From the IMG/VR virus record IMGVR_UViG_3300025892_000059, positions 1-35,185 of that record: a DNA stretch of 35,185 bases, one strand, 5' to 3'. Shown one piece after another: positions 1 to 26,802 of this stretch; within the stretch, counting starts at the first letter, position 1; every line of letters starts with the position of its first letter. The DNA comes from a virus. The notes beneath the pieces were generated by a model. It ran no database searches. It was not told where the DNA came from and saw nothing but the letters and a program-made list of their open reading frames with translations. A program made the position numbers and the translations under genes.

Positions 1-1457
1 GAGATACCACCAACCCAATTGTGTGAGTTCATAGATGCTCTTCTTATTAGAACTTCTCTGTTTACATTAGAATCTCTAAATCCATTAGAACCAATTAACA
101 ACCCTTCATATCCACCGATATCACCAGTGTATCCTTGAGTAGTTGCTTGGTTGTTTGCAACAACTGCATCGAAATCGATAAAGCCATTTGCATCTCTTGA
201 ACCTCTACCATTTTCTAAGTAGTGTTCAGTTAAATCCTTTCTGAAAGGTAGGATATCAGATACCCCATTACGATAGTTGTTACCTCTTGGACCTGTTCCA
301 CCACCTCTACCAGCTGAACCATATAATGATGTAGCTAGTTTAAGATTAGAATTAATTTCCCAATCCCAATTGAAAGTTGCTAGTGGTTTGTTATAGAAGT
401 TTCTTCTCATTGAGAATTCTTCTCCATTTAAAGTACCACCATTAGAGTTCCAACGTTGGTCGATTCCTTCACTACCAAAGTTTTGGTAATCTCTAATAGA
501 AACCCATACATCTCTTTGGTGATGCCATTGACCTGCCCCTAAAAAAGAAAAGTTCAACTCATGAGCTGAACCTTCTGGTGCGTAACCAACTGCTGCGAAG
601 TAAGTGTAACCTTCTCCACTTGTGTTATAAACATATCCATCTCCTTCCCATCTTGATAGTAAGAAAGATGATGCCCATCCCTTTTCGTTTTTACCTGTAT
701 TGTAAGATACTCCTGTTTTTTTGTAACCATCGTTACCAATCATTTGAAGTACTTTACCACCTTGACTTTTAGAAGCCGCTTTAGTAAAAATAGAAACAGT
801 TCCACCAACTGAAGGTACTGCTAATCTAGAGGCACCTAAACCTCTTTGGATTTGGATACCACTTGCAACATCAGTAAGACCTTGCCAGTTACTCCAATAC
901 ACCCAACCATTTTCCATATCATTAACGGGTTGCCCGTTGATAAGGAAAGATGTGTTTCTTTGGTCAAAACCTCTAAGAGAGATTCTTGAATCACCATATC
1001 CACCACCTTGTTTAGTAGCGTACACACCAGGTGTTTTGTTCATAATCTCAGGAAATTCTAAGTTACCAGTCTTTAGAGTAATCTCTGATACAGAGATTGC
1101 CGAAACTGCTACTGGAGTTTCCCTTACCTTCGCTACATCAATTACACCAGAAGTAACTACTACTTCACTTAATTGATTTAACGCAGTTTGTAAAACTACT
1201 TCCATTCCATCATATGCCTCTTCTTCAGCGGCATCGAATCCAATAAAAGTAATTACTAAAATATCCCCTGCTTTAGCATCAGAAATAGAAAAGAGACCAT
1301 CAAAATCGGTTGTTGTACCTATTTGGGTCCCTTTGATTACTACCGTTGCTCCCGGTAGGGGTTGATTTGCTTCCTCATCAATCACTGTTCCAGAGATTTG
1401 TGAGTAGCCGGTCATTGTGGTAAACACCATCAATAACCCAATTAAAAATTGCTTCAT
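1..1457 (-). CDS. TonB-dependent outer-membrane receptor, 3' end missing
   Basis: Read on the minus strand from ATG at 1457, this frame stays open to the left edge (about 485 codons), so the C-terminal barrel is cut off. It starts with a flavobacterial signal peptide (MKQFLIGLLMVFTTMTGYSQ), then a carboxypeptidase-regulatory-like domain (ISGTVIDEE...PLPGATVVIKGT), a TonB-box-like stretch (LSEVVVTSG), a plug domain with PGVYATKQGGGYGDSRISLRG and FLINGQPVNDMENGW, and the first aromatic-rich barrel strands. This order is standard for Bacteroidota SusC/TonB-dependent receptors, which import siderophores, glycans or peptides using TonB energy. The substrate cannot be read. It is divergent from the phage helicase and has its own promoter. 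On a phage genome it is unexpected; a host flank or a chimeric assembly remains possible. Confidence 0.93.
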   Translation of the reverse strand, partial: MKQFLIGLLMVFTTMTGYSQISGTVIDEEANQPLPGATVVIKGTQIGTTTDFDGLFSISDAKAGDILVITFIGFDAAEEEAYDGMEVVLQTALNQLSEVVVTSGVIDVAKVRETPVAVSAISVSEITLKTGNLEFPEIMNKTPGVYATKQGGGYGDSRISLRGFDQRNTSFLINGQPVNDMENGWVYWSNWQGLTDVASGIQIQRGLGASRLAVPSVGGTVSIFTKAASKSQGGKVLQMIGNDGYKKTGVSYNTGKNEKGWASSFLLSRWEGDGYVYNTSGEGYTYFAAVGYAPEGSAHELNFSFLGAGQWHHQRDVWVSIRDYQNFGSEGIDQRWNSNGGTLNGEEFSMRRNFYNKPLATFNWDWEINSNLKLATSLYGSAGRGGGTGPRGNNYRNGVSDILPFRKDLTEHYLENGRGSRDANGFIDFDAVVANNQATTQGYTGDIGGYEGLLIGSNGFRDSNVNREVLIRRASMNSHNWVGGI

Positions 1458-1588
1458 AATTGTACGTTTGTTTTTGTTCATATTAAATATAACTAATTAT
1501 TATAACTCTTACCATCAACGTGATGATAATCTTTAAATAGGTATCACATAATTCTAAAATAAGAAAAACGCTTCAACATATTTTGATA

Positions 1589-3117: not shown

Positions 3118-3126
3118 ATATTTATA
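3118..3126 (+). promoter_or_regulatory. Late-type promoter motif before the exported-protein operon
   Basis: ATATTTATA followed by GAAA, as at 14035 and 29816, but 149 bases before the next ATG (3276). If used, it would give a leader of about 140 nt that contains a small inverted repeat (GAGTA...TACTC, 3140-3157) and a near-tandem repeat of AATTGTTTTA just before the gene. No host-type promoter is visible in 3109-3275, so this is the best candidate for driving the operon. Confidence 0.4.
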
Positions 3127-3275: not shown

Positions 3276-3782
3276 ATGAAGTGTGCTATAAACAAGTTTG
3301 TGTTAGTAGTTATATTCCTCTTTATGGGTATATCTACCCAAGCACAAAACGATTTTTACGAAACGAAAGAAATAGCAATCGGTGAAGTTACCAACGAAAT
3401 TCGTATGGGTAAGTTTGCTGGTAATAGGAATCTTACGGTTGGTATCAAAAATATTTTAGAAGAAATCATTCTAGAATTAGACTACGATTTATACGATGGT
3501 GCATCACAAAGGATTAATGTTAGATTAGTATTTTTTGATATTAAGAATATGGGTACATCTATCGCTGTTTTTAGAAAAGGTGTTGCTCTAACCCAAATTG
3601 CTGCTATCGGAGAGTTAATTGAAGATGGTAAAGTTATTAAGGTTTCCAAACAAGCAGGAACTTCAAAACAAATCTCTCAATCAACATTGATTATTGCAGC
3701 CGATGGTAGGTTCAATCAACAAACCGCATCAATCGCACTTAAACGAGTGTGTGAAAAAATAATAAAAGACTTATTAGAATGA
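3276..3782 (+). CDS. Exported protein, distant CsgG-like C-terminal half
   Basis: 168 residues with a clear signal peptide (residues 1-24, ending ISTQAQ). The mature part has the pattern K-G-V-x3-Q-I-x2-I-G, then a DGK turn, S-x2-A-G-T-S, a helix starting FNQQTASIALKRV, and a final amphipathic helix. The CsgG-like protein at 6440-7156 shows the same order of elements (KDGVTQKQITRLGLQ, a DAETG turn, GSGLGEATT, FRQSAIGVTTRKAL), so I infer a common fold. The N-terminal half of CsgG is missing. The start follows AGAAAGG spaced 10 bases upstream. It is the first gene of the operon and overlaps the next by 4 bases. A YajG/LptE-like periplasmic protein is another possibility. Confidence 0.6.
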   Translation: MKCAINKFVLVVIFLFMGISTQAQNDFYETKEIAIGEVTNEIRMGKFAGNRNLTVGIKNILEEIILELDYDLYDGASQRINVRLVFFDIKNMGTSIAVFRKGVALTQIAAIGELIEDGKVIKVSKQAGTSKQISQSTLIIAADGRFNQQTASIALKRVCEKIIKDLLE

Positions 3783-5404
3783 AAAAAATTTTACTATTAT
3801 TAGTTAGTGTAATGTTTACACTAAGTTCGTATGGACAATCATCAATTGATTATAGTCCAGTTAATACTGTTACGCAAGTTGGAGATACTTTGATTATGAA
3901 GTTCCAATACTTTAAAGGAGATGGAAACGACTTGACTTTAGGTCAATTAGATTTCGAATACAACAATAAATTGTTATCGTATGTATCACATGAATCACAA
4001 GCACCAACTGGTGCATCATTTGCTAGAAACAATTGGACAGGATATAAGTTTGTACCTAAAGCAGATTCCGATGAAGATGATATGGATGTACAATACACTT
4101 GGTGGAAAGATGAAGCAGGTGCTAATTCGTATGAGACTGGTGCTGATTGGAGTGTAGAAAGAGTTACTATACAATCTGCTAGTGCATTGGAAAATGGACA
4201 AGAATTTATTAAGTATTCGTTTAAGGTAAAGGATAAGTTTGGTAGTGGGTATTCCAACTATAATGATATCATTAAAGTGAATTGGGCAAACTACCAAGAA
4301 TCAGATGGTACACAAATACAAACTACTCGTTCTAAAGATGGACAAGATTTAAGTGGTATCGAAGGTGGTAATGCTGGTAACTTTGTAATAAATCTTAAAA
4401 CTGCTAATACTGATAACTATACTGATTACTCTTATACTGTTAAGAATGGTGTAGGTGAATCAGTTGCAACTGGTACGTTTGATGAAAGTGGACAAGCATC
4501 TATAAGTGATTTAGAAAACAACGTAACTTATACGGCAGAAGCAAACTTAACCGAAGCTGCATCTTACTTAGATGAAGTTGTAACTGTATCTGATTTGGCA
4601 TTAGTATTTGCTGAGGCGATTGGAGCTGGTTCTGGTCCAAGTGGTGGTTCAACTACATTCGATTATTTCGTACAAGATATAATGGCTGATGTTGTTGGTG
4701 ATGGTGGTGTTGTTGATTTCCAAGATTCATATGAGATACTTGCTTACCTTCAAGGTGTAGATAGTTCTAATACAAACTTAATCACACAAGATGGACAAAC
4801 GGAAGATTATAGTGGTATAGCATCTACATATGGTGCAGTTGCTAATGATGTAGTAACATTCGCTAAATCATTCACACCAATTGATTCAGATGCTAGTTCT
4901 AAAACAATTGATTTGGCACATGGTTTAGTTGGGGATGTAAACTTCTCCCATTCATATACTCCAGTAGTAGAGAGTGGTGGTAAATCAACTTCTGCTAGAC
5001 AATCATCTGCTAGATATTCTAAAAGAGATTCGGAAGATGCTAATATTGATTTAATATCTGAAATAAACGATGAGGGGCAGGTGGTATTCTCAATTAACTC
5101 TGATGTTGAAGGTATGGTTGGTTCTCAGTTTAATATCGTATATGACCCTAATGTACTTTCATTGGAGAATGTAATATTTGATACTGGTAATACGATGACT
5201 AACTTTTCTAACATAGTTCAAAATGGAATAGTAAGGGTTGGTTCATTTGACCAAAACTTTGAATCTACTGTTAAAGAAGGAACACCATATAAACTAATAT
5301 TCACACCATTAGAAACAATAGAAAATACATCTGGTTTAATTTCTTTTAGAGTAAAAGAAGGTGTGAAAGCAGATGGAACAAAAATTAACTTTATAATACA
5401 ATAA
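3779..5404 (+). CDS. Exported surface protein with two cohesin-like domains and a dockerin-like segment
   Basis: 541 residues. Signal peptide 1-20 (ending LSSYGQ). Residues about 21-180 look like a cohesin-type beta-sandwich (opening V-x2-V-G-D-T-L and later LGQLDFEYNNKLLSY). Around 295-330 is a dockerin-like helix with a GDGGVVDFQDSYEILAYL loop. After a linker with GDVNFSHS and STSARQSSAR comes a second cohesin-like domain (VGSQFNIVYDPNVLSLENV) to the end. Cohesin and dockerin modules dock to each other in cellulosomes and on surfaces; this pairing in one protein suggests self-assembly, which is inference. A clear paralogue is encoded at 9400-11457. It overlaps the previous gene by 4 bases and is followed after 4 bases by a lipoprotein gene. 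Confidence 0.7.
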   Translation: MKKILLLLVSVMFTLSSYGQSSIDYSPVNTVTQVGDTLIMKFQYFKGDGNDLTLGQLDFEYNNKLLSYVSHESQAPTGASFARNNWTGYKFVPKADSDEDDMDVQYTWWKDEAGANSYETGADWSVERVTIQSASALENGQEFIKYSFKVKDKFGSGYSNYNDIIKVNWANYQESDGTQIQTTRSKDGQDLSGIEGGNAGNFVINLKTANTDNYTDYSYTVKNGVGESVATGTFDESGQASISDLENNVTYTAEANLTEAASYLDEVVTVSDLALVFAEAIGAGSGPSGGSTTFDYFVQDIMADVVGDGGVVDFQDSYEILAYLQGVDSSNTNLITQDGQTEDYSGIASTYGAVANDVVTFAKSFTPIDSDASSKTIDLAHGLVGDVNFSHSYTPVVESGGKSTSARQSSARYSKRDSEDANIDLISEINDEGQVVFSINSDVEGMVGSQFNIVYDPNVLSLENVIFDTGNTMTNFSNIVQNGIVRVGSFDQNFESTVKEGTPYKLIFTPLETIENTSGLISFRVKEGVKADGTKINFIIQ

Positions 5405-5408
5405 AAAG

Positions 5409-5789
5409 ATGAAAAAATTATTACTAATATTACTTACGTTTACTATATTAATTGGATGTGCTAAAGATGATGAATTTTTAGAACCAATTACTAATGAAGA
5501 AATACCACAATCTTTACAAATAAAAGAATTGATTGGTATAAAATTAGAAAACACTATTGTAACTGATAGAGTTGCTATGAATGTTAAATTACCATTAGAT
5601 GGTAAATATAGAATTAAGATAAGACATGGAATTAATAATGAACTAATATCACAAGAGATGATAGAAGCTGAAGAGGGTGATAATCTTCTTAGAGTATATG
5701 TTGCTTCTTTAGATAAGAGTGGTTATATGATTCAATTAACTGATGAATTTCACAACGTATTGGGTAATCAATCATTTGTGGTAAATTAA
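5409..5789 (+). CDS. Small lipoprotein, partner of the cohesin-like protein
   Basis: 126 residues with a lipoprotein signal (MKKLLLILLTFTILIGC; lipidated Cys at residue 17, followed by AKDDEF). The C-terminal 65 residues form alternating hydrophobic strands (YRIKIRHG, LLRVYVASLD, YMIQLTDE, QSFVVN). They resemble the end of the lipoprotein at 11454-11795, which also follows a cohesin-like gene. The strand pattern also recalls type IX secretion sorting domains, but these are not expected on a lipoprotein. Role unknown; a membrane anchor or chaperone for the upstream protein would fit. Confidence 0.65.
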   Translation: MKKLLLILLTFTILIGCAKDDEFLEPITNEEIPQSLQIKELIGIKLENTIVTDRVAMNVKLPLDGKYRIKIRHGINNELISQEMIEAEEGDNLLRVYVASLDKSGYMIQLTDEFHNVLGNQSFVVN

Positions 5790-5800
5790 ATAAATAAATT

Positions 5801-6103
5801 ATGAGTGATAAAAAAGAAGGATTCTTTGCACAAATAAAGAATCAAATAATAGCTGGGGTTGGTATAATACTAACTACGTTGGGTGGTGTTTTTATAGATG
5901 AAGTAAAATCATTTGTAGGAATAGAATCCGAAGAACAAACCGAACAAGTTCAAATAGAACAAAAGCAAGAGGTTAATGTTCAAGGACCTACTATCGTAGT
6001 AAACATACCAGAACAACAACCAGTAAAGGAGAAGGTGATTATCAAGGAGGTTAAAGTCCCTGTTAAGAAGAAAAAAGAAGTAGAAGAAGAAGCGGATTGG
6101 TAG
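5801..6103 (+). CDS. Membrane-anchored stalk protein, unknown function
   Basis: 100 residues. A short polar start is followed by one hydrophobic helix (about residues 14-34, IIAGVGIILTTLGGVFI), then a Gln/Glu/Val-rich and finally Lys/Glu-rich tail with no Cys (VNVQGPTIVVNIPEQQ, KVIIKEVKVPVKKKK). The Val/Lys/Glu tail resembles the stalk of the protein at 8869-9399, so both may project from the inner membrane into the periplasm. A spanin- or holin-like role is possible but not shown. Confidence 0.6.
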   Translation: MSDKKEGFFAQIKNQIIAGVGIILTTLGGVFIDEVKSFVGIESEEQTEQVQIEQKQEVNVQGPTIVVNIPEQQPVKEKVIIKEVKVPVKKKKEVEEEADW

Positions 6104-6137
6104 TAAGTTATAGGAAGTTAATTATTAAAATAAAATT

Positions 6138-6329
6138 ATGGTGTTTTTAGATGTTATTAGACAAATATGGACAGATTGTACTTTTTGGTATGATTACATA
6201 ATAGCAGTAGTAATATATTGTTTGATGGTTATGGCTTTTTCAGGTATTGGTAAAATGATATTTGAATTGGTTACAAATCCATCGCAATTTGATAATGTAC
6301 AATTTGGTATATTTGATTATTGTTGTTAG
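6138..6329 (+). CDS. Small single-pass membrane protein
   Basis: 63 residues with one strongly hydrophobic segment (about 20-38, IIAVVIYCLMVMAFSGIG) and a C-terminus ending in two cysteines. It starts 34 bases after the previous gene in an AT-rich spacer without a clear Shine-Dalgarno site. Not recognised; its size and position among envelope genes would allow a holin-like or assembly-factor role. Confidence 0.5.
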   Translation: MVFLDVIRQIWTDCTFWYDYIIAVVIYCLMVMAFSGIGKMIFELVTNPSQFDNVQFGIFDYCC

Positions 6330-6330
6330 T

Positions 6331-6435
6331 ATGAGAAAGATTATAGAAATATTAAGGAAATTGGATAATTGGTTAATCCAATCAGGATATAATATGTATC
6401 CCAATTTAACCAAACATATGAAAAATAAAAAATAA
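6331..6435 (+). CDS. Possible 34-residue protein
   Basis: ATG one base after the previous stop, 34 codons to TAA, and 4 bases before the next gene, so it fills the gap in the operon exactly. The product is basic, begins MRKIIEILRKLDNWLIQSGYN and looks like one amphipathic helix. No family is recognised. It may be only a spacer, but the spacing favours translation. Confidence 0.4.
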   Translation: MRKIIEILRKLDNWLIQSGYNMYPNLTKHMKNKK

Positions 6436-6439
6436 GAAT

Positions 6440-7156
6440 ATGAAAAAAATACTTTTTTTATTAGTATGTGTATTGTTTACACAAACTATATTTGGACAAG
6501 TAGGTTCGGTAGAGGCAGAAAAGTATCAAGCAGATTTTGAAAAAAGAAAATCAATTGATGATGTATCAGATTACGATGGGGAGTATATTCCTATTGCACT
6601 AATTAACATATCTGCATCTGATATGGTGTATGAGATGTGGCCTGAGTTAAAGGATGCTAGGATTGGATTAGGGGTAACCAATATGGTAATTGAATACTTA
6701 GATTGGACTAATCGTTTTGAGTTCGTAGAAGAGAAATCTGAGATTAAGAATAGAATGAAATCACAATGGGTTGCATCTCGTAAGGGTGTATCTGAAAATA
6801 AAGTATATGGTATGGGTAAGATTACTCTTGCTGAATACTTTGTTACTATTGAAATATATGATTTCTCAGTATCAGAAGATGAAGTTGTTGCGCTTAAAGA
6901 TGGGGTTACTCAAAAACAAATAACTCGTTTAGGATTACAAGTTAGGTTTACTGATGCTGAAACTGGAAGATACTTTGTTGGTTCTGGTTTGGGTGAGGCA
7001 ACTACTGTAAAGAAACAAGAAGGTTTGTTGGGGTTAAGTGTAGATGAAGTAAACTTTAGACAATCTGCAATTGGTGTTACTACTCGTAAGGCATTAGAAA
7101 CTGCTTCGGCAAGAATAGTATCTAGAATGATAAGAAAAGGAATATTCGAAAACTAA
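6440..7156 (+). CDS. csgG: CsgG-like outer-membrane secretion pore protein
   Basis: 238 residues. Signal peptide 1-20 (ending TIFGQ) with no lipobox Cys, unlike E. coli CsgG. The mature protein shows the CsgG-type core: IALINISASD, a helix with IGLGVTNMVIEYL, then NRFEFVEE (about 51-97), the strand YFVTIEIYDFSV, the turn DAETGRYFVGSG, and a C-terminal helix ETASARIVSRMI. CsgG forms an oligomeric pore that exports curli subunits. Such genes have been described, as I recall, in marine phages of SAR11 and OM43 bacteria. A curlin repeat protein and CsgE/CsgF are not recognisable here, so the cargo is unknown; the neighbouring exported proteins are candidates. Confidence 0.65.
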   Translation: MKKILFLLVCVLFTQTIFGQVGSVEAEKYQADFEKRKSIDDVSDYDGEYIPIALINISASDMVYEMWPELKDARIGLGVTNMVIEYLDWTNRFEFVEEKSEIKNRMKSQWVASRKGVSENKVYGMGKITLAEYFVTIEIYDFSVSEDEVVALKDGVTQKQITRLGLQVRFTDAETGRYFVGSGLGEATTVKKQEGLLGLSVDEVNFRQSAIGVTTRKALETASARIVSRMIRKGIFEN

Positions 7157-7159
7157 TGA

Positions 7160-8866
7160 ATGAGAAAACTACTATCGATACTTTTTTTTATATTCGTAAC
7201 GAATCTTAGTTACGGACAAACTTTCACACAAACATTTGTTGATAGGTGTACTGGTGAGGTACAAATAGTTACTGCTGATTTCACATCTGGTTCAGCAGTT
7301 GTATCCTTTTATAATAAGGTTAAACTATTTACTTACAATCAATACATTAATGGTGAACTACAATCTTGGTTAGTTCAGCAATACGCTTGGTGGGCTGCAT
7401 TATCTCCATGTTCATCAGCAACAACCCAAACTCAAAACGCAACTAACAACGCTAACAACGCAACTAACAACAATAACTCAGGCTCATCTGGTAGTTCTGG
7501 TTCATCTGGTGGAGGAGATAGTGGTGGTAGTGGAGATAGTGGTGGTGGAAGTGGAGACTCTGGTGGAGGAGGTTCTGATGGCTCTGATGGTGGTGGAGGT
7601 TCTGATGGCTCTGATGGAGGTGGTGGTGATTCCGATGGCGGAGGAGGAGACTCTGATGGAGGAGGTGATTCCGATGGTGGAGGTGGTGATTCCGATAGTG
7701 GAGATGGTGATGGTGGTTCTGGTGATTCCGATGGAGATTCTGATTCTGATGGAGGAGGAGATTCTGATGGTGATTCCGATGGTGATGGTGGAGATGGTGA
7801 TGGTGATTCTGATTCCGATGGCGATAGTGATGGAGATGGAGATGGCGATAGTGATGGAGATGGAGATGGTGATGATGATTCTGATGGAGATGATTCAGAT
7901 GGAGATGGTGATGATGACTCCGATGATGATTCCGATAGTGATGATGATTCTGATGATGATTCTGATGAATCTGATGAAGATAGTGAAGAAGAAAGTGAAG
8001 AAGAATCTGAGGAAGAAGAAAAGGAAGAGGAAGAAGAATCTGATGAAGAAGAGGAAGAGGAAGAGGAAGAAAAAGAAGAAGAGGAGGAAGAAGAAGATGA
8101 AGAGGAAGAAGAGGAAGAGGAAGATGAGGAGGAGGAAGAAAAAGATGAGGAAGAAGATGAGGAAGAGGAAGAAGAAAAGAAAAAGAAATTTATGCCTATA
8201 CAATTAAAGGCAGATATGTTGGCTCAACAAGCATTAACATTGGATTACAATACAGTTCTTAATGTTGGAGCATCAATGAGTTCTATATATGGTGATGTAA
8301 CATATACATCTACATTACAAATTTATGATAACTTAAAACAGGTGGGATTATCATTGGGTAAATCAAAGGTAACTTTAAATGATAAGTACCAAGTTAATTG
8401 GGTAGATGGTGTTAATGTTTCTTATATGAGAAACTACGCTATGAATGCAACATCAGTTTCTTTAAGTAGAATGAAACCTATGGGTAAGTGGGGAACTGTT
8501 GGTGTTGGTGTTAACTATTCTTATATGTTTGGTAAAGATGCATTAGGTCAGAAGATGCCTAATATGGCTAGTGGTGGCTGGAATGGGTTATATACAAATA
8601 TGTTTATGATTAATAAAAGAATTGTTTATACTCCTGCTTTTATAGTTGCAGCAAGTCCAATATCATATACACAAAAATTACCAGGGGTTGTTGATTCTCC
8701 GTTTTCAAGTATTAGTAAAGATACCATAATGATATTAGCTAATTCATTCAACGCACAAATAACAAACAAATTTTCGGTTAACTTTTCTTGGACTATCATT
8801 CGTTCATCAAATGAATTTGTACCGATAATGAACTCATTTATGGTGGGTTCTAAAATACCATTTTAA
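7160..8866 (+). CDS. Exported protein with giant acidic Ser/Asp/Gly-Glu linker and beta-barrel-like C-terminus
   Basis: 568 residues. Signal peptide 1-20 (LSYGQ); a short N-terminal domain (21-104) with two Cys (DRCTGE, SPCSS); low complexity from about 105 to 342 that grades from Gly/Ser to Asp/Ser/Gly, Asp/Ser, Glu/Ser and finally Glu/Lys; then about 225 residues of alternating strands (SMSSIYGDVTYTSTL, VGVGVNYSYMFG, FSVNFSWTII) ending in Phe, as in outer-membrane barrels. The linker is extremely negative and could bind Ca2+ or stay extended in sea water, like Sdr proteins of Gram-positive bacteria. Its position directly after the CsgG-like gene makes it a possible cargo or partner. Function not recognised. 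Confidence 0.7.
   Translation: MRKLLSILFFIFVTNLSYGQTFTQTFVDRCTGEVQIVTADFTSGSAVVSFYNKVKLFTYNQYINGELQSWLVQQYAWWAALSPCSSATTQTQNATNNANNATNNNNSGSSGSSGSSGGGDSGGSGDSGGGSGDSGGGGSDGSDGGGGSDGSDGGGGDSDGGGGDSDGGGDSDGGGGDSDSGDGDGGSGDSDGDSDSDGGGDSDGDSDGDGGDGDGDSDSDGDSDGDGDGDSDGDGDGDDDSDGDDSDGDGDDDSDDDSDSDDDSDDDSDESDEDSEEESEEESEEEEKEEEEESDEEEEEEEEEKEEEEEEEDEEEEEEEEDEEEEEKDEEEDEEEEEEKKKKFMPIQLKADMLAQQALTLDYNTVLNVGASMSSIYGDVTYTSTLQIYDNLKQVGLSLGKSKVTLNDKYQVNWVDGVNVSYMRNYAMNATSVSLSRMKPMGKWGTVGVGVNYSYMFGKDALGQKMPNMASGGWNGLYTNMFMINKRIVYTPAFIVAASPISYTQKLPGVVDSPFSSISKDTIMILANSFNAQITNKFSVNFSWTIIRSSNEFVPIMNSFMVGSKIPF
7475..8186 (+). repeat. Degenerate tandem microsatellite coding for the acidic linker
   Basis: About 710 bases built from short purine-rich units, first GGTGGA/GATTCCGATGG-type, then GATGGAGATGGT, GATGATGATTCC, and finally GAAGAGGAAGAA. 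The reading frame is kept throughout, and the encoded composition shifts from Gly/Ser to Asp/Ser to Glu. Such tracts change length by slippage, so length differences between related phages are expected. Confidence 0.85.
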
Positions 8867-8868
8867 TT

Positions 8869-9399
8869 ATGAAAAAAATAGATTACAAATTAGGGATTAT
8901 AATAGGGTTAATAGGATTATCATTATTTCAATATTTTAATCCAACTATCAAAGAGGTAGAGTTAATAAAAGAAGTAGAAGTAGAAGTTGTAAAAACAATA
9001 ATAGATAGTGTTTATGTTGATAATATTATTGAAAAGAAAATATACTATCCAAAGTACATTACTAAAGTTGATACTGTTGAAGTTATCAAAGAGATAATAG
9101 TTGAAAAACCTGTAACTAAAATAAAGAAAATTTATAGAGAAAGAAAGGTTGAAAAGATAGTAGAGGTGCCTGTGAATGTTAAGAAGATGTTTATAGGGTT
9201 TGGTTATCAGTATGATGTAGGTAATTACTTTAGTGGTGCTAGTATCAAATTACTACACAAAACACCTAAAGATAAAATGTTTAGTTTAGATTTAGGTTTT
9301 AGAAATGATTTATTGGATGTACAAAGTAATGTAGGTGAATTAAGACCTTATGTTGGTGCATCAATATATTTTAGAATAGATAATCCAGATAAAAAATAA
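8869..9399 (+). CDS. Inner-membrane anchored periplasmic stalk protein with small beta-barrel-like end
   Basis: 176 residues. One N-terminal membrane helix (about 8-24, LGIIIGLIGLSLFQYF) without a cleavage site; a Val/Ile/Lys/Glu-rich stalk (27-103) with repeats such as KEVEVEVV, VEVIKEIIVEKP and VEKIVEVPV; then four likely beta strands (MFIGFGYQYDV, GASIKLLHK, FSLDLGFRND, RPYVGASIYFRI). The plan suggests a protein that spans the periplasm from the inner to the outer membrane. A unimolecular-spanin-like role is one option; a scaffold for the CsgG-like pore is another. It lies 2 bases after the acidic protein and directly abuts the next gene. Confidence 0.6.
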   Translation: MKKIDYKLGIIIGLIGLSLFQYFNPTIKEVELIKEVEVEVVKTIIDSVYVDNIIEKKIYYPKYITKVDTVEVIKEIIVEKPVTKIKKIYRERKVEKIVEVPVNVKKMFIGFGYQYDVGNYFSGASIKLLHKTPKDKMFSLDLGFRNDLLDVQSNVGELRPYVGASIYFRIDNPDKK

Positions 9400-11457
9400 A
9401 TGAAAAAGTTTATTTTTATTTTAATAAGTACACTATTAGTTTGTAAAGTAGGATATTCCCAAACTGGTGAGGGATATATAAATTATAAATCCTACAAAAC
9501 TCACTATGGTACTGGTGCAAGTTCTACTTTAAGTGGTGTAACATATAGTGGAGGAGCAGGTTCAACTGCTGAGTTTGATGCAATGGTTGATACAAACCAA
9601 CCAGGTACAACACTAACTCATACTGGAGAAGTATCACCATATGGTTCAACTGGATTAAATGGAGGACACCCACCACGATATGGAAGTTCATATTTTGCAA
9701 TAGTTTATTCTGGTTGGTTCAAACCAAACAAAAGTGGAACTTATAATATTAGAACTTATGCAGATGATTCATCAGAAACTCGATATAGAGAAGTAGGAAC
9801 TACTACTTGGCAAACAATGACATATCAATGGGGTTGTTGTTCTTATGTATATGGAACTGCAACTTTAGATAAAACTAAATGGTATGAGTTTGAATTTAGA
9901 TACCAAGAATATGGTGGTGGGGATTATTACTACTTCGCATATTCAATACCAGCAAATTCCTCAAATCCTTATTATAACCAAGTTAGTTCTAATCATCAAT
10001 TTGGAACTTGGACAAATATAAACCCAAGTGGTACAAGTACTACAACAGACCCTGAAGTTGATTTAGATTTAGAATTCCATTCTCAATTAGCACCAGAAGA
10101 ATATAGATTTGGTGTATATTATGATGCATCAAATGAACAAGATGGTTCAACATATTTCAATACTTCTACTATGAATTCAAAATATTATTTAGATGATGAT
10201 GGTAGTAAAGATATAACTGATTATCTAAATTTAGTTAAGATGGCAGATGGTAAGAAAGCAACTACAACTGGTGGTAATGTAGAATGGTGTGTGGTATATG
10301 ATTATGATAACACAAATAAAAGATATAGAGTTGGTATAGATAAAAGAGAATTTGCAAGTGGATTTACCTTTACTGATTTGAAACAATTACAATTATTTGA
10401 TTTATGGAATGATGAAATAACTTACAAATCCGATGACCAATATTGGGCTGAATATTATATCTACACCGATACTCAATTTGATTTTATCAATTCATCTAAT
10501 TCCTCAAACATACGAGATGCGAATGGATTTTATGGATTACAAGCAGAGTTCTCATTTGAAGATGTTGAAATATACAAAGGACATAAAATATCTTTTATGA
10601 ACCCATCTAATAATATAGAACAATGGACAGCGGAAGAATTTATGGATGATTACATTACAGTTGCAGATGTAGTTGCGGGATTTAATGAATTAGCTGGTGG
10701 TGGAATATTTGGTGGATATAAAGGAGATTTGAATGGAGTTCAATTACAAAATTCAGATGTAAATCAAGATGGTGAATTTGATTTCCAAGATAGTCAAATA
10801 GGATTAGCTTTCTTAAATGGTGGTGATACTCCTTTTAATGGTTATCTGTCTGAAATAATGAGAATAGTTCCTAAATCAGAATACGATAATACTACAACTA
10901 CTAATTGGAAAACACAAACAAATAAATCACCATCAACATCTTTTACTTTTAGTGTTATAGATACGATACAAACTTTAGAATATAAAGTTTCGTTTATAGG
11001 TGATGTAAACCTTTCACATTCTGCACCACAATCAACAAGTTCACCTGGTACTCAATCAACATCGGCTAGAAATTCATCTTCTCAAAAATCAAATGAATTG
11101 GAAATATTATTAGATATCAGTAAGGAAGAAGATAAATTTGTGGTAACATTAGATGTACCACAAAACAATCATAACATTGTAGGTTCTGAATTTAGAATAG
11201 GATATGATAACACTAGAGTAGAGTTTGATAGAATAGAAACTACTTCTAACTTACAATCATTCTCAGCTGAAAGAACAAACTACATAAAGTTAGGTTCTAT
11301 ATCTACTGATGGTTCTCAAAATCTAAATGGTGGTGTACAATATAAGATTTACTTTTCACCACAACAAACTTTTGAATCTACACTAGGATTACTATCAGTT
11401 TTAAAATCAGAATTAGTAAAACAAAATGGGGGTGGAATAGACCATAAAATAAAATGA
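9400..11457 (+). CDS. Exported PA14/dockerin/cohesin-like surface protein
   Basis: 685 residues. Signal peptide 1-21 (ending KVGYSQ). Residues about 22-205 resemble a PA14-type carbohydrate-binding domain (YFAIVYSGWFKPNKSGTYN, RTYADDSSE, then a strand with WYEFEFRYQEYGGGDYYYF). A central domain of about 225-400 is not recognised. A dockerin-like calcium loop follows (DVNQDGEFDFQDSQIGLAFL, about 450-475), then a GDVNLSHS linker (about 534), STSARNSS, and a C-terminal cohesin-like domain (VGSEFRIGYDNTRVEFDRI). The last three elements match the protein at 3779-5404, so the two are paralogues; this copy has the PA14 domain in addition. PA14 and cohesin domains point to glycan or cell binding at the surface. 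It starts on the base after the previous stop. Confidence 0.7.
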   Translation: MKKFIFILISTLLVCKVGYSQTGEGYINYKSYKTHYGTGASSTLSGVTYSGGAGSTAEFDAMVDTNQPGTTLTHTGEVSPYGSTGLNGGHPPRYGSSYFAIVYSGWFKPNKSGTYNIRTYADDSSETRYREVGTTTWQTMTYQWGCCSYVYGTATLDKTKWYEFEFRYQEYGGGDYYYFAYSIPANSSNPYYNQVSSNHQFGTWTNINPSGTSTTTDPEVDLDLEFHSQLAPEEYRFGVYYDASNEQDGSTYFNTSTMNSKYYLDDDGSKDITDYLNLVKMADGKKATTTGGNVEWCVVYDYDNTNKRYRVGIDKREFASGFTFTDLKQLQLFDLWNDEITYKSDDQYWAEYYIYTDTQFDFINSSNSSNIRDANGFYGLQAEFSFEDVEIYKGHKISFMNPSNNIEQWTAEEFMDDYITVADVVAGFNELAGGGIFGGYKGDLNGVQLQNSDVNQDGEFDFQDSQIGLAFLNGGDTPFNGYLSEIMRIVPKSEYDNTTTTNWKTQTNKSPSTSFTFSVIDTIQTLEYKVSFIGDVNLSHSAPQSTSSPGTQSTSARNSSSQKSNELEILLDISKEEDKFVVTLDVPQNNHNIVGSEFRIGYDNTRVEFDRIETTSNLQSFSAERTNYIKLGSISTDGSQNLNGGVQYKIYFSPQQTFESTLGLLSVLKSELVKQNGGGIDHKIK

Positions 11458-11795
11458 GAAAGTATATAGTATTAATATTGTTCGTTATATTATCTTGTCA
11501 ACCAGAAGAGTTGATGATTGTAGAACCTATGCCACAATACGAAATGATATTTGAAGAATCAATATCCAATGTTGTTGATGGACAAGAGTATTCATTTGAA
11601 GTAAGTTCAACTGAACCTCATCATTTAATAATAAGTAAGTTAAACGGCTCGGTGGTTTCTAAAGAAAGTATTATTCCTATATTGGGTTTGAACACTAAAA
11701 TAATTTACACTAAGTCATTGCCTAAAGAAGAATTATATTTATCTCTTATTAGTTCTGATATTGAAATCGAAAAAACAACTATTATTGTAGAATAA
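11454..11795 (+). CDS. Small lipoprotein, second cohesin-partner copy
   Basis: 113 residues with a lipobox (MRKYIVLILFVILSC; lipidated Cys at residue 15). The C-terminal half (HHLIISKLNGSVVSKESII, IIYTKSLPKEELYLSLI, TTIIVE) follows the strand pattern of the lipoprotein at 5409-5789. It overlaps the PA14/cohesin gene by 4 bases, just as the other copy follows its cohesin-like gene closely. Inference: a duplicated two-gene unit of surface protein plus lipid-anchored partner. Confidence 0.65.
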   Translation: MRKYIVLILFVILSCQPEELMIVEPMPQYEMIFEESISNVVDGQEYSFEVSSTEPHHLIISKLNGSVVSKESIIPILGLNTKIIYTKSLPKEELYLSLISSDIEIEKTTIIVE

Positions 11796-11808: not shown

Positions 11809-12465
11809 ATGTTAGTATATGATTTCAAAAATGTAGCTAAGATTAAGAATCTTAAAAATAGTGAATCCGTTGAGCCAAAACATGCTGAACGTATTGCTGA
11901 GATTCCTAATTCTATTGTTAAAGATTTTGATATTGAAAAATACAAATCAAATCCTCCACATAAAAACGAATCGGTAAGAACTATATACGAACTTATGCAC
12001 ATTTCTGAGATTCCATCTAATGATGAATTTACAATAGAAATGGATAAGGTAAAAAAATCCTTTAAAGATTTATGTAAAAGGTTAGATTTGGATTTCCCAA
12101 AAGATAAAGTAGAGGAGTTAAAAAATGTTGCTGGTTCTATTGTGTTAGATTTAAAATACCACTATAATAGACCAAGACCATATATGTTGGCTAAAGAGTT
12201 TGAAATTCCATTAGATACGAATGAGATTAAAAATACAACAAAAGATTCTCCATCATATCCATCTGGTCATGCTGCACAAAGTATATTAATATCAAATTAT
12301 TTATCTGAACTATATCCATCTCACAAAATGGAGTTTATTAAATTAGGTAAAGATATAGCTAAAAGTAGGATAGTTGCAAAAGTTCATTATCCATCTGATG
12401 TTAGATTTGGAGAAATTATTGGAAACGATATATTCATATATTTAAATAAGAACGAACTTATATAA
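11809..12465 (+). CDS. PAP2-superfamily phosphatase
   Basis: 218 residues with the three PAP2 signatures in order: K-x6-RP (KYHYNRPRP, about 114-122), PSGH (SYPSGHA, about 150-156) and SR-x5-H-x3-D (SRIVAKVHYPSD, about 186-197), including both catalytic histidines. The family removes phosphate from lipid phosphates, polyprenyl pyrophosphates or small phosphomonoesters. There is no signal peptide or membrane helix, so a soluble cytoplasmic enzyme of the class A acid phosphatase or haloperoxidase fold is likelier than a membrane lipid phosphatase. Starts 13 bases after the lipoprotein gene and looks co-transcribed with the envelope operon. Substrate unknown. Confidence 0.8.
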   Translation: MLVYDFKNVAKIKNLKNSESVEPKHAERIAEIPNSIVKDFDIEKYKSNPPHKNESVRTIYELMHISEIPSNDEFTIEMDKVKKSFKDLCKRLDLDFPKDKVEELKNVAGSIVLDLKYHYNRPRPYMLAKEFEIPLDTNEIKNTTKDSPSYPSGHAAQSILISNYLSELYPSHKMEFIKLGKDIAKSRIVAKVHYPSDVRFGEIIGNDIFIYLNKNELI

Positions 12466-16828: not shown

Positions 16829-17308
16829 ATGAAGAAAAAAATAATTTATATCGATATGGATGGAGTCTTAGTTGACTTGGGAAAAGCTTTTGATAAGTTT
16901 TTCAAATTACATCCGTATTTAAAGGAAAGATACAAAGATAATCCTGACCACATTCAAGGTATTTTCAGAAACGCACCTCCAATGGAGGGAGCTATTGAAG
17001 CTGTTAAAAAACTTGCTGAAAGTGGTAAATATGAATTGTTTATAGCTACTTCAGCTCCTTGGGGAAATCCAATGAGTGGTTCTGATAAAAGATTTTGGGT
17101 TGAAGATTACTTTGGAAATCTATTTCACAAAAAAATATTTGTAACACATAGAAAGGATTTGTTAGTTGGTGATTATCTTATCGATGATAGAACTAAGAAT
17201 GGTGCTGGTGAGTTTGATGGTGAGTTATTACAATTCGGTATCAATTGGGAAACTGGTAAGGAAGGGCCTTATCCAAATTGGGATTCAATTTTAGATTACT
17301 TATTATAA
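16829..17308 (+). CDS. 5'(3')-deoxyribonucleotidase (HAD superfamily)
   Basis: 159 residues from ATG 16829. HAD motif I is IYIDMDGVLVDL (nucleophile D9, D11), motif II FIATSAPWGNP, motif III K-x-LLVGDYLIDDRTKNGAGEF with the metal-binding DD. The family dephosphorylates deoxynucleoside monophosphates and is common in phages, where it adjusts the dNTP pool. An in-frame ATG at 16796 would add 12 polar residues, but it lies only about 3 bases after the expected transcription start, so I prefer the downstream ATG, which also gives the usual family N-terminus (MKKKIIYIDMDG). Overlaps the next gene by one base. Confidence 0.88.
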   Translation: MKKKIIYIDMDGVLVDLGKAFDKFFKLHPYLKERYKDNPDHIQGIFRNAPPMEGAIEAVKKLAESGKYELFIATSAPWGNPMSGSDKRFWVEDYFGNLFHKKIFVTHRKDLLVGDYLIDDRTKNGAGEFDGELLQFGINWETGKEGPYPNWDSILDYLL

Positions 17309-17880
17309 TGAAAGATAAACACAGAAAAGAACAAACTGAAAAAATAACAATTAAATTGTTAAAATTTATTGCATTGTTATTATTTGTATTAGTTTCTCTT
17401 ATATTCATAACAAGTTGTGAGGATAATATTATTGATGAATTGCCTGATAACTATACAATGCAATTGGATGGTAGATTAGATACAACCGATGAAGGTTTGT
17501 ATAAATTAGAACTAAACTCATCGGATAACTCTATTCAGACTATTCATACAATAGGTGGAACACTTTTAAATAATGGTGAAGAACCATATCCACAATTGGT
17601 TGAATGGGAATCATCACACAATTGGACTTTAAATGATACGGCATATGTTATCGTTAGAAGAACAATAAATGTATTGGGTAATTGGGTTACAATTGATACT
17701 TCATATGTGACTGGATTCAATGGGAGTAGTGTTCCAACTATTAATGAGTTTTCTTATAGTGGAGATGGTGGAGAAATAAACACAGTAATTGCACCAATAG
17801 ATGAAATGGTAGGTGATACACTTATTGTTAAAGCAAGATTTGAAGATATAGAAAAAACTATTAGAATAGTATTAGAATGA
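17308..17880 (+). CDS. Lipoprotein of unknown function
   Basis: 190 residues from ATG 17308, which overlaps the upstream stop codon. A long charged n-region (KDKHRKEQTEK) precedes a hydrophobic helix and a lipobox (LIFITSC; Cys about residue 39). The mature part looks all-beta (YTMQLDGRLDTTDEGLYKLEL, TAYVIVRRTINVLGNWVTIDTSYVTG, TLIVKARFEDIEKTIRIVLE), like an Ig-type fold. It sits among early nucleotide genes rather than in the envelope clusters, so it may act early, for example in superinfection exclusion; that is a guess from position. Confidence 0.65.
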   Translation: MKDKHRKEQTEKITIKLLKFIALLLFVLVSLIFITSCEDNIIDELPDNYTMQLDGRLDTTDEGLYKLELNSSDNSIQTIHTIGGTLLNNGEEPYPQLVEWESSHNWTLNDTAYVIVRRTINVLGNWVTIDTSYVTGFNGSSVPTINEFSYSGDGGEINTVIAPIDEMVGDTLIVKARFEDIEKTIRIVLE

Positions 17881-24809: not shown

Positions 24810-26000
24810 ATGATAAAAAAAGCTATACTAATAGTTGTAGTATTATTTACTACGACAAACATACAAGCACAAATTGTAAAAGAGTTATACAAAGATTTCC
24901 TAAAATATGGAACTATCTATGGTGCAGGGGATATTAATAATTCCGTTGAAGCCATTGAACCAACATATGTTTTAGAGAGAACTGATAATGTATATGAAAT
25001 TCCAATCATTAAAGATAATACAGAAGTATTTCCATTCGATTACAGATATGGATTTGGTATTAGAAAATTAGCTAGATTCGATTACGAAAGAAAACCTAAA
25101 AACTTTTATGATGGAACAGAATCTCAATTAGCATTTACTGCACCAACTTCAGCATTCAAAGGATTGGAATACCAATTCCATTTTGAAAAAGAACGTTGGA
25201 GGGGTAGAGATTTTACAAATTATAGATTTTTCCTAAAACATACAGGTAAAAATCATATCGTAAAGATAGAAACAAGAGAAGTAGATAAGATTAATCTTAA
25301 CTATAACTCAGCAGAAGCTAGATTTAGATTGCCAATCGGTAAGAAGTTTTCTCTATCGGCCGGAGCTATCCTAAGAGGACATGATAGAGCGTATGGATAC
25401 AATCCAATTGAAATTTATTTGAATGAAACTACCAAAGATGAATTTGGAAATGAATTTCCAACTAATCCTTGGTATATACTTGCAGCAAATTATGGATATG
25501 TTGAAGTTCCAACTACATACACAAATAATACAACCGGTGAAGAATACTCTGATTTTGTTTGGGAAGATGAAGATGGTAATATAGTTGCTTATAGTGACCA
25601 AGATTTTAGAGAAAGAGTATTTCCATCTATTATGAATGAGTTTAATGGAAGAGCATGGGATTTATTAGACCCATGGATGGAAGTTGCTCCAATCATCGGA
25701 TTCGATTTCTACCACTACAAATCAGATTTTTGGTTTCATGCATATGGAAACTATATATTACCATTTCACCAATACGTTGCTGGTGAAGAAGAATTTAGTT
25801 ACCTTAATAGAAACAATTGGGGTAAAGGTGGATTACGACAAGATTCAGATTTAGAACAATGGACTGATTATTCTTTTGGTGTTAGTTTAGGTTATAAGGT
25901 AGGAAAGAACTTTGGAATATTTGCAGAAGGTGAATATTCAAAAATGTGGGATAGTAGATTATACCAAACTACATTTGGTATAAATTATACTTTTAGATAA
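24810..26000 (+). CDS. Outer-membrane beta-barrel protein
   Basis: 396 residues. Signal peptide 1-20 (TTNIQAQ). The mature chain alternates polar and aromatic residues in strand pairs (FPFDYRYGFGIRKLARFDYER, GLEYQFHFEKERWRG, FSLSAGAILRGHDRAY, WFHAYGNYILPF, YSFGVSLGYKVG) and ends in FGINYTFR, an outer-membrane barrel-type C-terminal strand. The aromatic content and length would suit a barrel of 12-16 strands. No channel family is recognised. It starts the second envelope cluster and overlaps the next small gene by one base. A role as porin, receptor mask or lysis partner is open. Confidence 0.75.
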   Translation: MIKKAILIVVVLFTTTNIQAQIVKELYKDFLKYGTIYGAGDINNSVEAIEPTYVLERTDNVYEIPIIKDNTEVFPFDYRYGFGIRKLARFDYERKPKNFYDGTESQLAFTAPTSAFKGLEYQFHFEKERWRGRDFTNYRFFLKHTGKNHIVKIETREVDKINLNYNSAEARFRLPIGKKFSLSAGAILRGHDRAYGYNPIEIYLNETTKDEFGNEFPTNPWYILAANYGYVEVPTTYTNNTTGEEYSDFVWEDEDGNIVAYSDQDFRERVFPSIMNEFNGRAWDLLDPWMEVAPIIGFDFYHYKSDFWFHAYGNYILPFHQYVAGEEEFSYLNRNNWGKGGLRQDSDLEQWTDYSFGVSLGYKVGKNFGIFAEGEYSKMWDSRLYQTTFGINYTFR

Positions 26001-26114: not shown

Positions 26115-26399
26115 ATGGCAAAAGAATTAAACGAAGGAACTAAAATCACACTTGATTTAAAAACAATAGGTATCTTATTATTTACTGTATCTGTTGTTAT
26201 TGGAATGTGGTTTACACTACAAGGTGATATCGAAGAAGCTAAGACATTACCCAAACCACCTATTGATAGAATCGAATATGATTTGAAAGATGAGTTAATC
26301 AGACAAACTATTCTTGATACACAAGATGATGTTGAATCAATACTCGAAGAGTTAGAAAAAATTGATGAAAGATTATACGAATTACAAAAAGAAAGATAG
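26115..26399 (+). CDS. Membrane-anchored periplasmic coiled-coil protein
   Basis: 94 residues. Short cytoplasmic start, one membrane helix (about 18-35, IGILLFTVSVVIGMWFTL), a Pro-containing linker (TLPKPPIDRI) and a C-terminal coiled coil (TQDDVESILEELEKIDERLYELQKE). This plan is that of inner-membrane spanin subunits, but also of many small membrane proteins. Its neighbours, an outer-membrane barrel and an exported thioredoxin-like protein, keep an envelope or lysis role open. Confidence 0.65.
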   Translation: MAKELNEGTKITLDLKTIGILLFTVSVVIGMWFTLQGDIEEAKTLPKPPIDRIEYDLKDELIRQTILDTQDDVESILEELEKIDERLYELQKER

Positions 26400-26400
26400 T

Positions 26401-26802
26401 ATGAAACATTTATTAATATTCATATTTTTACTATTCTCTACACCAATATTTTCTCAACAATGGATTGATGATTCAAACTTTAATACTAAGATTCATGCTA
26501 ATGATGCATTTGGTGATGATGAGACAATTATAACAATTGTAGAATTTTGGGTAGAGTTTAATAAAGCCAATGCTTTTCCTGATTGGGATAAGTTAGAAGG
26601 TGTAGAGTACTTCAGAGTAGATATATCTAAAGCTCCTCAAGCAAAGAAAGATTATAGGGTTAGAATGGCTCCAACTATTATCATATTTAAGAATGGAACC
26701 AAGGAAGATAGTTTCAAAGCAAGTTTAGATTTAGAGTGTCCTGTTAATTTAAATGAACTAAGAGAAGCAATAGAAGAAGTCAAAAGAGCTGACAAGTTCT
26801 AA
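26401..26802 (+). CDS. Exported thioredoxin-fold protein lacking CXXC
   Basis: 133 residues from ATG 26401, one base after the previous stop. Signal peptide 1-19 (ending PIFSQ). The thioredoxin order is clear: TIVEFWVEF strand, VEYFRVDIS strand, AKKDYRVRMAPTIIIFKNG with the cis-proline, and a last helix. The active-site position after the first strand reads EFNKANAF instead of W-C-x-x-C, so no disulfide chemistry is expected; the only Cys is in LECPVN near residue 109. It may bind peptides or act as a structural partner. An upstream in-frame ATG at 26362 would overlap the preceding gene and remove the signal peptide. Confidence 0.75.
   Translation: MKHLLIFIFLLFSTPIFSQQWIDDSNFNTKIHANDAFGDDETIITIVEFWVEFNKANAFPDWDKLEGVEYFRVDISKAPQAKKDYRVRMAPTIIIFKNGTKEDSFKASLDLECPVNLNELREAIEEVKRADKF

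Follow-up and report, generated by a model that had tools for sequence, protein, structure and literature searches.

The window analysed here is a 35-kb viral record (35,185 nucleotides) of a large myovirus, with T4-like baseplate genes at its right end whose nearest isolate relatives belong to Microcystis phage Mel-JY01 and Flavobacterium phage immuto. Between positions 3276 and 11795 it carries an operon whose products are largely furnished with export signals (Table 1). A sequence-only reading had described eleven genes separated by at most 34 bases. Ten of these ORFs have homologues in the same order in 6 to 86 loci, and the spacing holds elsewhere in the operon, but the eleventh, a 34-codon ORF, is doubtful, given that no counterpart was seen between the same genes in relatives. 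It alone spans the interval 6329-6440, so that the real gap there is perhaps 110 bases.

Table 1. Genes of the operon and copies of the promoter-like motif in the window
Feature	Position	Strand	Description
TATTTATA	3119..3126	+	promoter-like motif, 158 bases upstream of the first gene (3276)
TATTTATA, copies	1694, 3119, 11798, 14036, 15246, 19459, 23704, 26834, 29817
D	3276..3782	+	small exported protein, CsgG-like; signal peptide
E	3779..5404	+	exported scaffold, 541 aa; signal peptide; N-terminal domain aa 30-180, dockerin-like segment aa 263-326, C-terminal cohesin aa 434-538
F1	5409..5789	+	lipoprotein, LIGC-AKDDE; domain related to the T9SS sorting domain
A	5801..6103	+	N-terminal membrane helix, then P/Q/E/K-rich tail with terminal Trp
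Small membrane protein	6138..6329	+	variable slot between A and B
34-codon ORF	6331..6435	+	ATG at 6331, end at 6435; doubtful gene
B	6440..7156	+	CsgG-fold protein; plain signal peptide without lipobox
C	7160..8866	+	signal peptide; N domain of about 75 aa with two Cys; acidic low-complexity linker; barrel-like C-terminal region
H	8869..9399	+	N-terminal membrane anchor; V/I/E/K-rich stalk; short beta-like C-terminal strands
G	9400..11457	+	exported adhesin by homology, 685 aa; signal peptide; PA14/GLEYA-type head aa 21-206, dockerin-like segment aa 414-474, C-terminal cohesin aa 577-681
F2	11454..11795	+	second lipoprotein, ILSC-QPEEL; F1 family; follows G as F1 follows E

Comparison of the window with a related locus (L003) gave dN/dS values of 0.14-0.40 for eight of nine genes, indicating purifying selection; for the first gene (3276) dS was saturated. 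Inspection of the sequences, together with a simple hydropathy rule, reproduced the counts of export signals first proposed, with five signal peptides (genes starting at 3276, 3779, 6440, 7160 and 9400), two lipoboxes (5409 and 11454) and three membrane helices (5801, 6138 and 8869), and these N-terminal signals recur in homologues. No Pfam or PHROG family was significant when the window proteins were searched alone, and the names given to the proteins were therefore tested through their relatives. A host fragment joined by misassembly was ruled out, since the flanking genes on both sides keep their order, at 65-93% identity, in a 252-kb contig (L010).

The gene for B is present in at least 444 viral contigs of up to 434 kb, the best 80 of which were retrieved. 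Among 84,980 prokaryote genomes it was found once, on a 254-kb MAG contig, probably a phage, where the rest of the operon is present too; an origin of the operon in the host was rejected on the basis of this single match. A search of 50,697 phage records matched only isolates of immuto, whose host is Flavobacterium sp. LMO8 and which carries the operon. The suggested comparison of gene order among viral contigs revealed a core that recurs in 86 loci (A in 80, C in 79 and D in 77), these loci being related to each other and not independent. The recurrent core consists of a tailed membrane protein, a CsgG-fold protein, a putative outer-membrane barrel, a smaller CsgG-like protein and a cohesin scaffold, while H occurs in 17 of the 86 loci, chiefly in the lineage of the window. 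Two layouts were distinguished: D-E-F-A-(small membrane protein)-B-C-(H)-(G-F), to which the window belongs, and E-A-(small membrane protein)-B-C-G-D, found in most other loci. Between A and B, six loci encode proteins that share 32-38% identity with the small membrane protein of the window, and unrelated small membrane proteins fill the slot in other loci. No description of the full set was found in the open-access literature, in agreement with the earlier remark that it was not known.

The CsgG-like character attributed to B is supported by structure prediction. An AlphaFold model (AF2, 56 homologues) reached a pLDDT of 72 and a pTM of 0.64, and in Foldseek its nine best PDB matches are all CsgG chains (E 2.9e-7 to 4.7e-6, TM 0.44-0.51; top entries 4uv2, 4uv3 and 6l7c), followed by PelC and FlgT, which are other proteins of the CsgG fold; the best match among viral models (BFVD) is a phage CsgG. 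An earlier AF2 model built from 13 sequences, with a pLDDT of 55, had already matched CsgG. At the sequence level, the CsgG family PF03783 did not match B of the window and, at E<=1, recovered nothing from 11 phage records in a search that detected E. coli and other controls; a PDB profile search with 13 CsgG-like sequences gave no match, and B was rejected as a sequence relative of the CsgG of phage HTVC008M after a negative profile comparison. The model shows one long hairpin (aa 133-172), and a second hairpin was not seen in it. The D family, present in 77 of the 86 loci, is distantly related to B according to profile-profile comparison (probability 99.8 between D1 and D2, and 95.9 between D2 and B). 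In C, the C-terminal regions of two lineages match each other with a probability of 100 and the N domains with 99.9, the last residue is Leu or Phe in 69 of 79 proteins, and the linker is acidic in the lineage of the window. The C-terminal region of C is thus described here as a putative outer-membrane barrel.

The cohesin assignment proved correct for both E and G. The C-terminal domains of the two window proteins and the Pfam cohesin of immuto gp015 form one HMM family (E 6e-24), and gp015 itself matches both cohesin (5.9e-9) and the T9SS type A sorting domain TIGR04183 (9.3e-12). Among 66 E-type proteins of relatives, Pfam recognised a cohesin (PF00963) in 42, and a sorting domain was recognised by Pfam and NCBIfam in 34. 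In the lineage with lipoproteins, Pfam mostly fails to detect anything in E, and for this reason the HMM linkage was used there. Cohesin matches were confined to operon proteins in the genomes searched whole, and in the eight sorting-domain phages searched in this way PF18962 matched once per genome, within the operon. The dockerin assignment stands in part: both E and G of the window have a dockerin-like segment, but the matches to its calcium loop lie mostly below the Pfam cut-off, with one above it, and cohesin-dockerin pairing is consequently treated here as hypothetical.

The window itself has no T9SS sorting domain, and lipoprotein F stands in its place. When our own HMM was applied to the 77 loci with enough sequence upstream, 41 had the sorting domain and the other 36 had F, with no locus having both or neither. 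On the tree of B, the two were switched independently at least twice, and since the loci are related, with about two switches among them, this mutual exclusion weighs less statistically than the raw count of 77 loci implies. The F profile matches the sorting-domain profile with a probability of 94.5, and the Pfam sorting-domain model weakly matches F in one phage (the record of L031). Surface lipoproteins of Bacteroidota follow the LES rule, with Cys followed by K-(D/E)2 at +3 to +5, and a reporter carrying this signal, SiaC+2AKDDE+6, was localised to the surface in Capnocytophaga canimorsus (PMC5080379). F1 (C-AKDDE) shows this pattern and F2 (C-QPEEL) is a looser match; in the F family as a whole, positions +4 and +5 after the Cys are acidic in 68 and 78% of proteins, respectively, against a background of 13%. 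The same operon slot thus appears to be filled by two different surface signals, a sorting domain or a LES-type lipoprotein. In the lineage of the window, the signals of E and G themselves do not explain how these proteins cross the outer membrane.

The other large exported protein, G, is distinguished by a head that changes between phages. Among 43 G proteins, Pfam recognised the head families Lectin_C (18), Laminin_G_3 (9), GLEYA (7), PA14 (6) and GEVED (4), and the EPN...WND sugar site is kept in the 18 lectins. For the window, the PA14-like head first proposed is upheld by homology: its family includes proteins of L042 (PA14 2.6e-19), L002 (2.3e-9) and L010, the last of which matches PF07691 over the cut-off (1.3e-5), and the head is therefore assigned by homology to the PA14/GLEYA group. 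In two closely related loci (L017 and L018), B, C and D are 100, 96 and 95% identical, respectively, whereas the heads are only 27% identical; these unrelated heads are flanked by a conserved N-terminal part (86%) and conserved dockerin ends (79%). Between the window and L003, dS is lower in G (0.15) than in E (0.44) and B (0.80), which points to a recent exchange of G. A sorting domain was found in none of 58 G proteins, and G of the window has neither a sorting domain nor a lipobox alongside its signal peptide. This indicates that G needs another route across the outer membrane, for which B, C, D and A are the natural candidate; alternatively, G may be co-exported bound to E.

The operon is probably governed by a phage-wide control element, given the intergenic enrichment of the motif TATTTATA ahead of this operon and of tail operons. 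Ten copies lie on the plus strand of the window, nine of them intergenic against 0.72 expected, and none of 1000 shuffles reached nine; most are situated 12-36 bases ahead of an ORF. In relatives, ATATTTAT occurs within 200 bases upstream of the operon in 30 of 83 cases, compared with 3% of random stretches. The T4-type late promoter TATAAATA was considered and set aside, having a single plus-strand copy, and TATTTATA, the enriched motif, is likely to be a promoter element of the phage.

Taken together, the conserved signal peptides, the T9SS sorting domain in equivalent proteins and the lipoprotein with a Bacteroidota surface-export motif strongly favour the placement of the products in the envelope and on the surface of the infected cell, as had been suggested. 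It is probable, judging from sequence and predicted structure, that the operon encodes a surface-display apparatus in infected Bacteroidota cells. In such an apparatus, E would be a cohesin scaffold bound for the outside of the cell: one set of phages would achieve this with the sorting domain of E itself and the secretion system of the host, and in the set of the window the routing would be taken over by F, a surface lipoprotein with a relative of the sorting domain. G would carry an exchangeable glycan-binding head and attach to the scaffold by contacts of the cohesin-dockerin type, and A, B, C and D together may make up a phage-encoded channel or platform in the envelope, needed for G. The infected cell would then display lectins of the phage's choosing, and adhesion to neighbouring host cells or particles could allow progeny to be freed beside new hosts. 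What is shown is the conservation of the genes, their signals, the homology-based domain assignments, the exchange of heads and, in prediction, the CsgG fold; the order of assembly, the role of the channel and the purpose are what we infer from these features, and adhesion, as the most likely purpose, is put forward tentatively, its chance being somewhat below even.

Several known systems resemble this operon in part. The curli (type VIII) operons of pelagimyophage HTVC008M and methylophage Melnitz also combine a phage-borne CsgG-fold protein with exported neighbours, and gp018 of HTVC008M bears PA14, as does G of the window. These operons have PF03783 CsgG, CsgF, curlin repeats and a FecR protein (in HTVC008M, PF10614 CsgF, PF03783 CsgG, a curlin-associated protein, a FecR protein and gp018), whereas the phages described here are phages of Bacteroidota and have cohesin/dockerin-like scaffolds, a sorting domain or surface lipoprotein, and lectin heads. 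The CsgF and Curlin_rpt families of Pfam were found in neither the window nor the E and G proteins, and both are present in the pelagiphage and Melnitz controls. The pore of E. coli curli, CsgG/CsgF, shares the predicted fold of B; in contrast to E. coli CsgG, B has a plain signal peptide and no PF03783 match, and a curlin-type substrate was not found in the operon. As a separate observation, gp018 of HTVC008M (L106, NC_020484 10638-11963), annotated as hypothetical, fuses PA14 (2.7e-6, over the cut-off) with curlin repeats (5.2e-8). In Melnitz (L108, MZ577097), curlin-repeat proteins are encoded next to csgG at 6863-7582 and 8641-9657; csgA and csgB were stated to be absent from this phage (PMC9004378).

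The T9SS type A sorting-domain proteins of Cryophage, which include a variable PA14 protein, are similar to those of the present phages (PMC7468147). The Cryophage cargo consists of separate variable genes (endoglucanase, GH39 and PA14; PMC7468147), whereas in the present phages each genome has a single scaffold with a sorting domain, encoded in a conserved operon alongside CsgG-like proteins, a putative barrel and a separate lectin, and in the lineage of the window a lipoprotein substitutes for the sorting domain. Cellulosome scaffoldins and dockerin proteins likewise distribute cohesin and dockerin-like modules over distinct exported proteins that have binding heads; in contrast to cellulosomes, no catalytic modules were seen here, anchoring is predicted to proceed via the T9SS or a lipoprotein, and the pairing is hypothetical.

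For the pelagiphages, "sibling capture" has been proposed (PMC7029224). The authors of the Melnitz study reported no clumping in culture (PMC9004378), an argument against adhesion being the role in every case. Of the roles listed at the outset, adhesion or aggregation and superinfection exclusion both fit the present results, and pure lysis fits poorly with exchangeable lectin heads.

Superinfection exclusion is the close rival to adhesion and cell capture, although we regard it as rather unlikely. According to this explanation, the same display apparatus would serve to mask the cell's own glycans or receptors with lectins and to destroy incoming DNA with exported nucleases, and progeny would be kept off dead envelopes. 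Superinfection exclusion or competition has been proposed for the T9SS cargo of Cryophage (PMC7468147). The rapid exchange of heads would suit strain-specific glycans of the host, and 10 loci have, within the operon or next to it, the gene for an exported Endonuclease_NS whose D(K/R)GH site is intact, which is nevertheless only 10 of 86. Short superinfection-exclusion proteins are usually enough, and a scaffold of ten genes would be costly by comparison.

The presence of CsgG-fold and exported PA14 proteins in two unrelated groups of large phages is our main reason to prefer display and adhesion over lysis. A lysis apparatus, in which a CsgG-like pore would act with holin-like small membrane proteins, and anchored tails and stalks would serve as spanin-like bridges, sometimes beside an endolysin, is improbable. 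Lysis has been proposed as the role of CsgG in Melnitz (PMC9004378), the slot between A and B does hold small membrane proteins, and an endolysin comes after the operon in the L017 lineage. This is the one lineage in which an endolysin is adjacent, and a cassette of holin, endolysin and spanin was not encountered; the endolysin of immuto lies about 6 kb from the operon. The small membrane proteins were rejected as holins or spanins, no such family being recognised, and lysis would leave the sorting domains, export lipoproteins, cohesins and swapped sugar-binding heads unexplained.

Equally doubtful is the gathering of polysaccharide, or attachment to algae, for nutrients during infection, in conjunction with a neighbouring TonB-dependent receptor gene. 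Lectin, laminin-G and PA14 heads would be appropriate to such a function, and in the window such a receptor gene is found 1.8 kb upstream of the operon and has conserved counterparts in relatives, but the operon has no polysaccharide-degrading enzyme and the receptor family occurs in only 7 of the 86 loci. Least probable is that the exported proteins join virions at or after lysis as secondary adhesion fibres: heads are exchanged as in tail-fibre tips, and a small number of other genes in these phages weakly match a single dockerin-like calcium loop, but signal peptides, sorting domains and lipoprotein signals would remove the proteins from the cytoplasm, where virions are assembled, and cohesin was not found elsewhere in the genomes searched.

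Returning to surface display, we propose, with a chance only a little short of even, that large phages of Bacteroidota share an extracellular cohesin-dockerin lectin scaffold, exported via the host T9SS or the surface-lipoprotein pathway and with heads traded as cassettes, and that marine phages of Proteobacteria converged on a similar solution with PA14 curli. If this is true, making infected cells present glycan-binding proteins of the phage's choosing would be a general phage strategy that has so far gone unrecognised. Infected Bacteroidota, which are among the main degraders of polysaccharides in coastal seas, would bear a surface chosen by the virus, which would either make the infected cell adhesive or shut out rival viruses. 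The unexplained CsgG genes of marine phages also gain testable content, given that they adjoin exported sugar-binding or PA14-headed proteins in two unrelated phage groups. Phage immuto on Flavobacterium sp. LMO8 offers an isolate with which display, adhesion and superinfection exclusion could be told apart.

Several genes in and around the operon are recorded here as observations in their own right. The TonB-dependent-receptor-like gene of the window (3-1481, minus strand) is truncated by the contig end; it is 72-86% identical to genes in L006, L010, L011, L012 and L015, beside the same operon, and has weaker relatives in other phage records, two of which exceed 630 kb. The exported DNA/RNA non-specific endonuclease is found at NC_055915 9935-10513 (L025) and in L009, L047, L048, L063, L085, L088, L093, L095 and L098. 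The gene after D in L048, L050, L059, L060 and L066 encodes an exported protein of about 150 aa with the motif HES(Y/H)HL (HExxH), which has no Pfam match and is a possible zinc metallopeptidase. Exported-looking proteins are also encoded outside the operon of the window, namely a lipoprotein (SC-EDN) at 17278-17880, a barrel-like protein with a signal peptide at 24810-26000, and a thioredoxin-like protein with a signal peptide at 26362-26802. Directly 3' of the operon, the gene at 11809-12465 encodes a protein of the PAP2 phosphatase superfamily (1.3e-12), with relatives in 12 loci.
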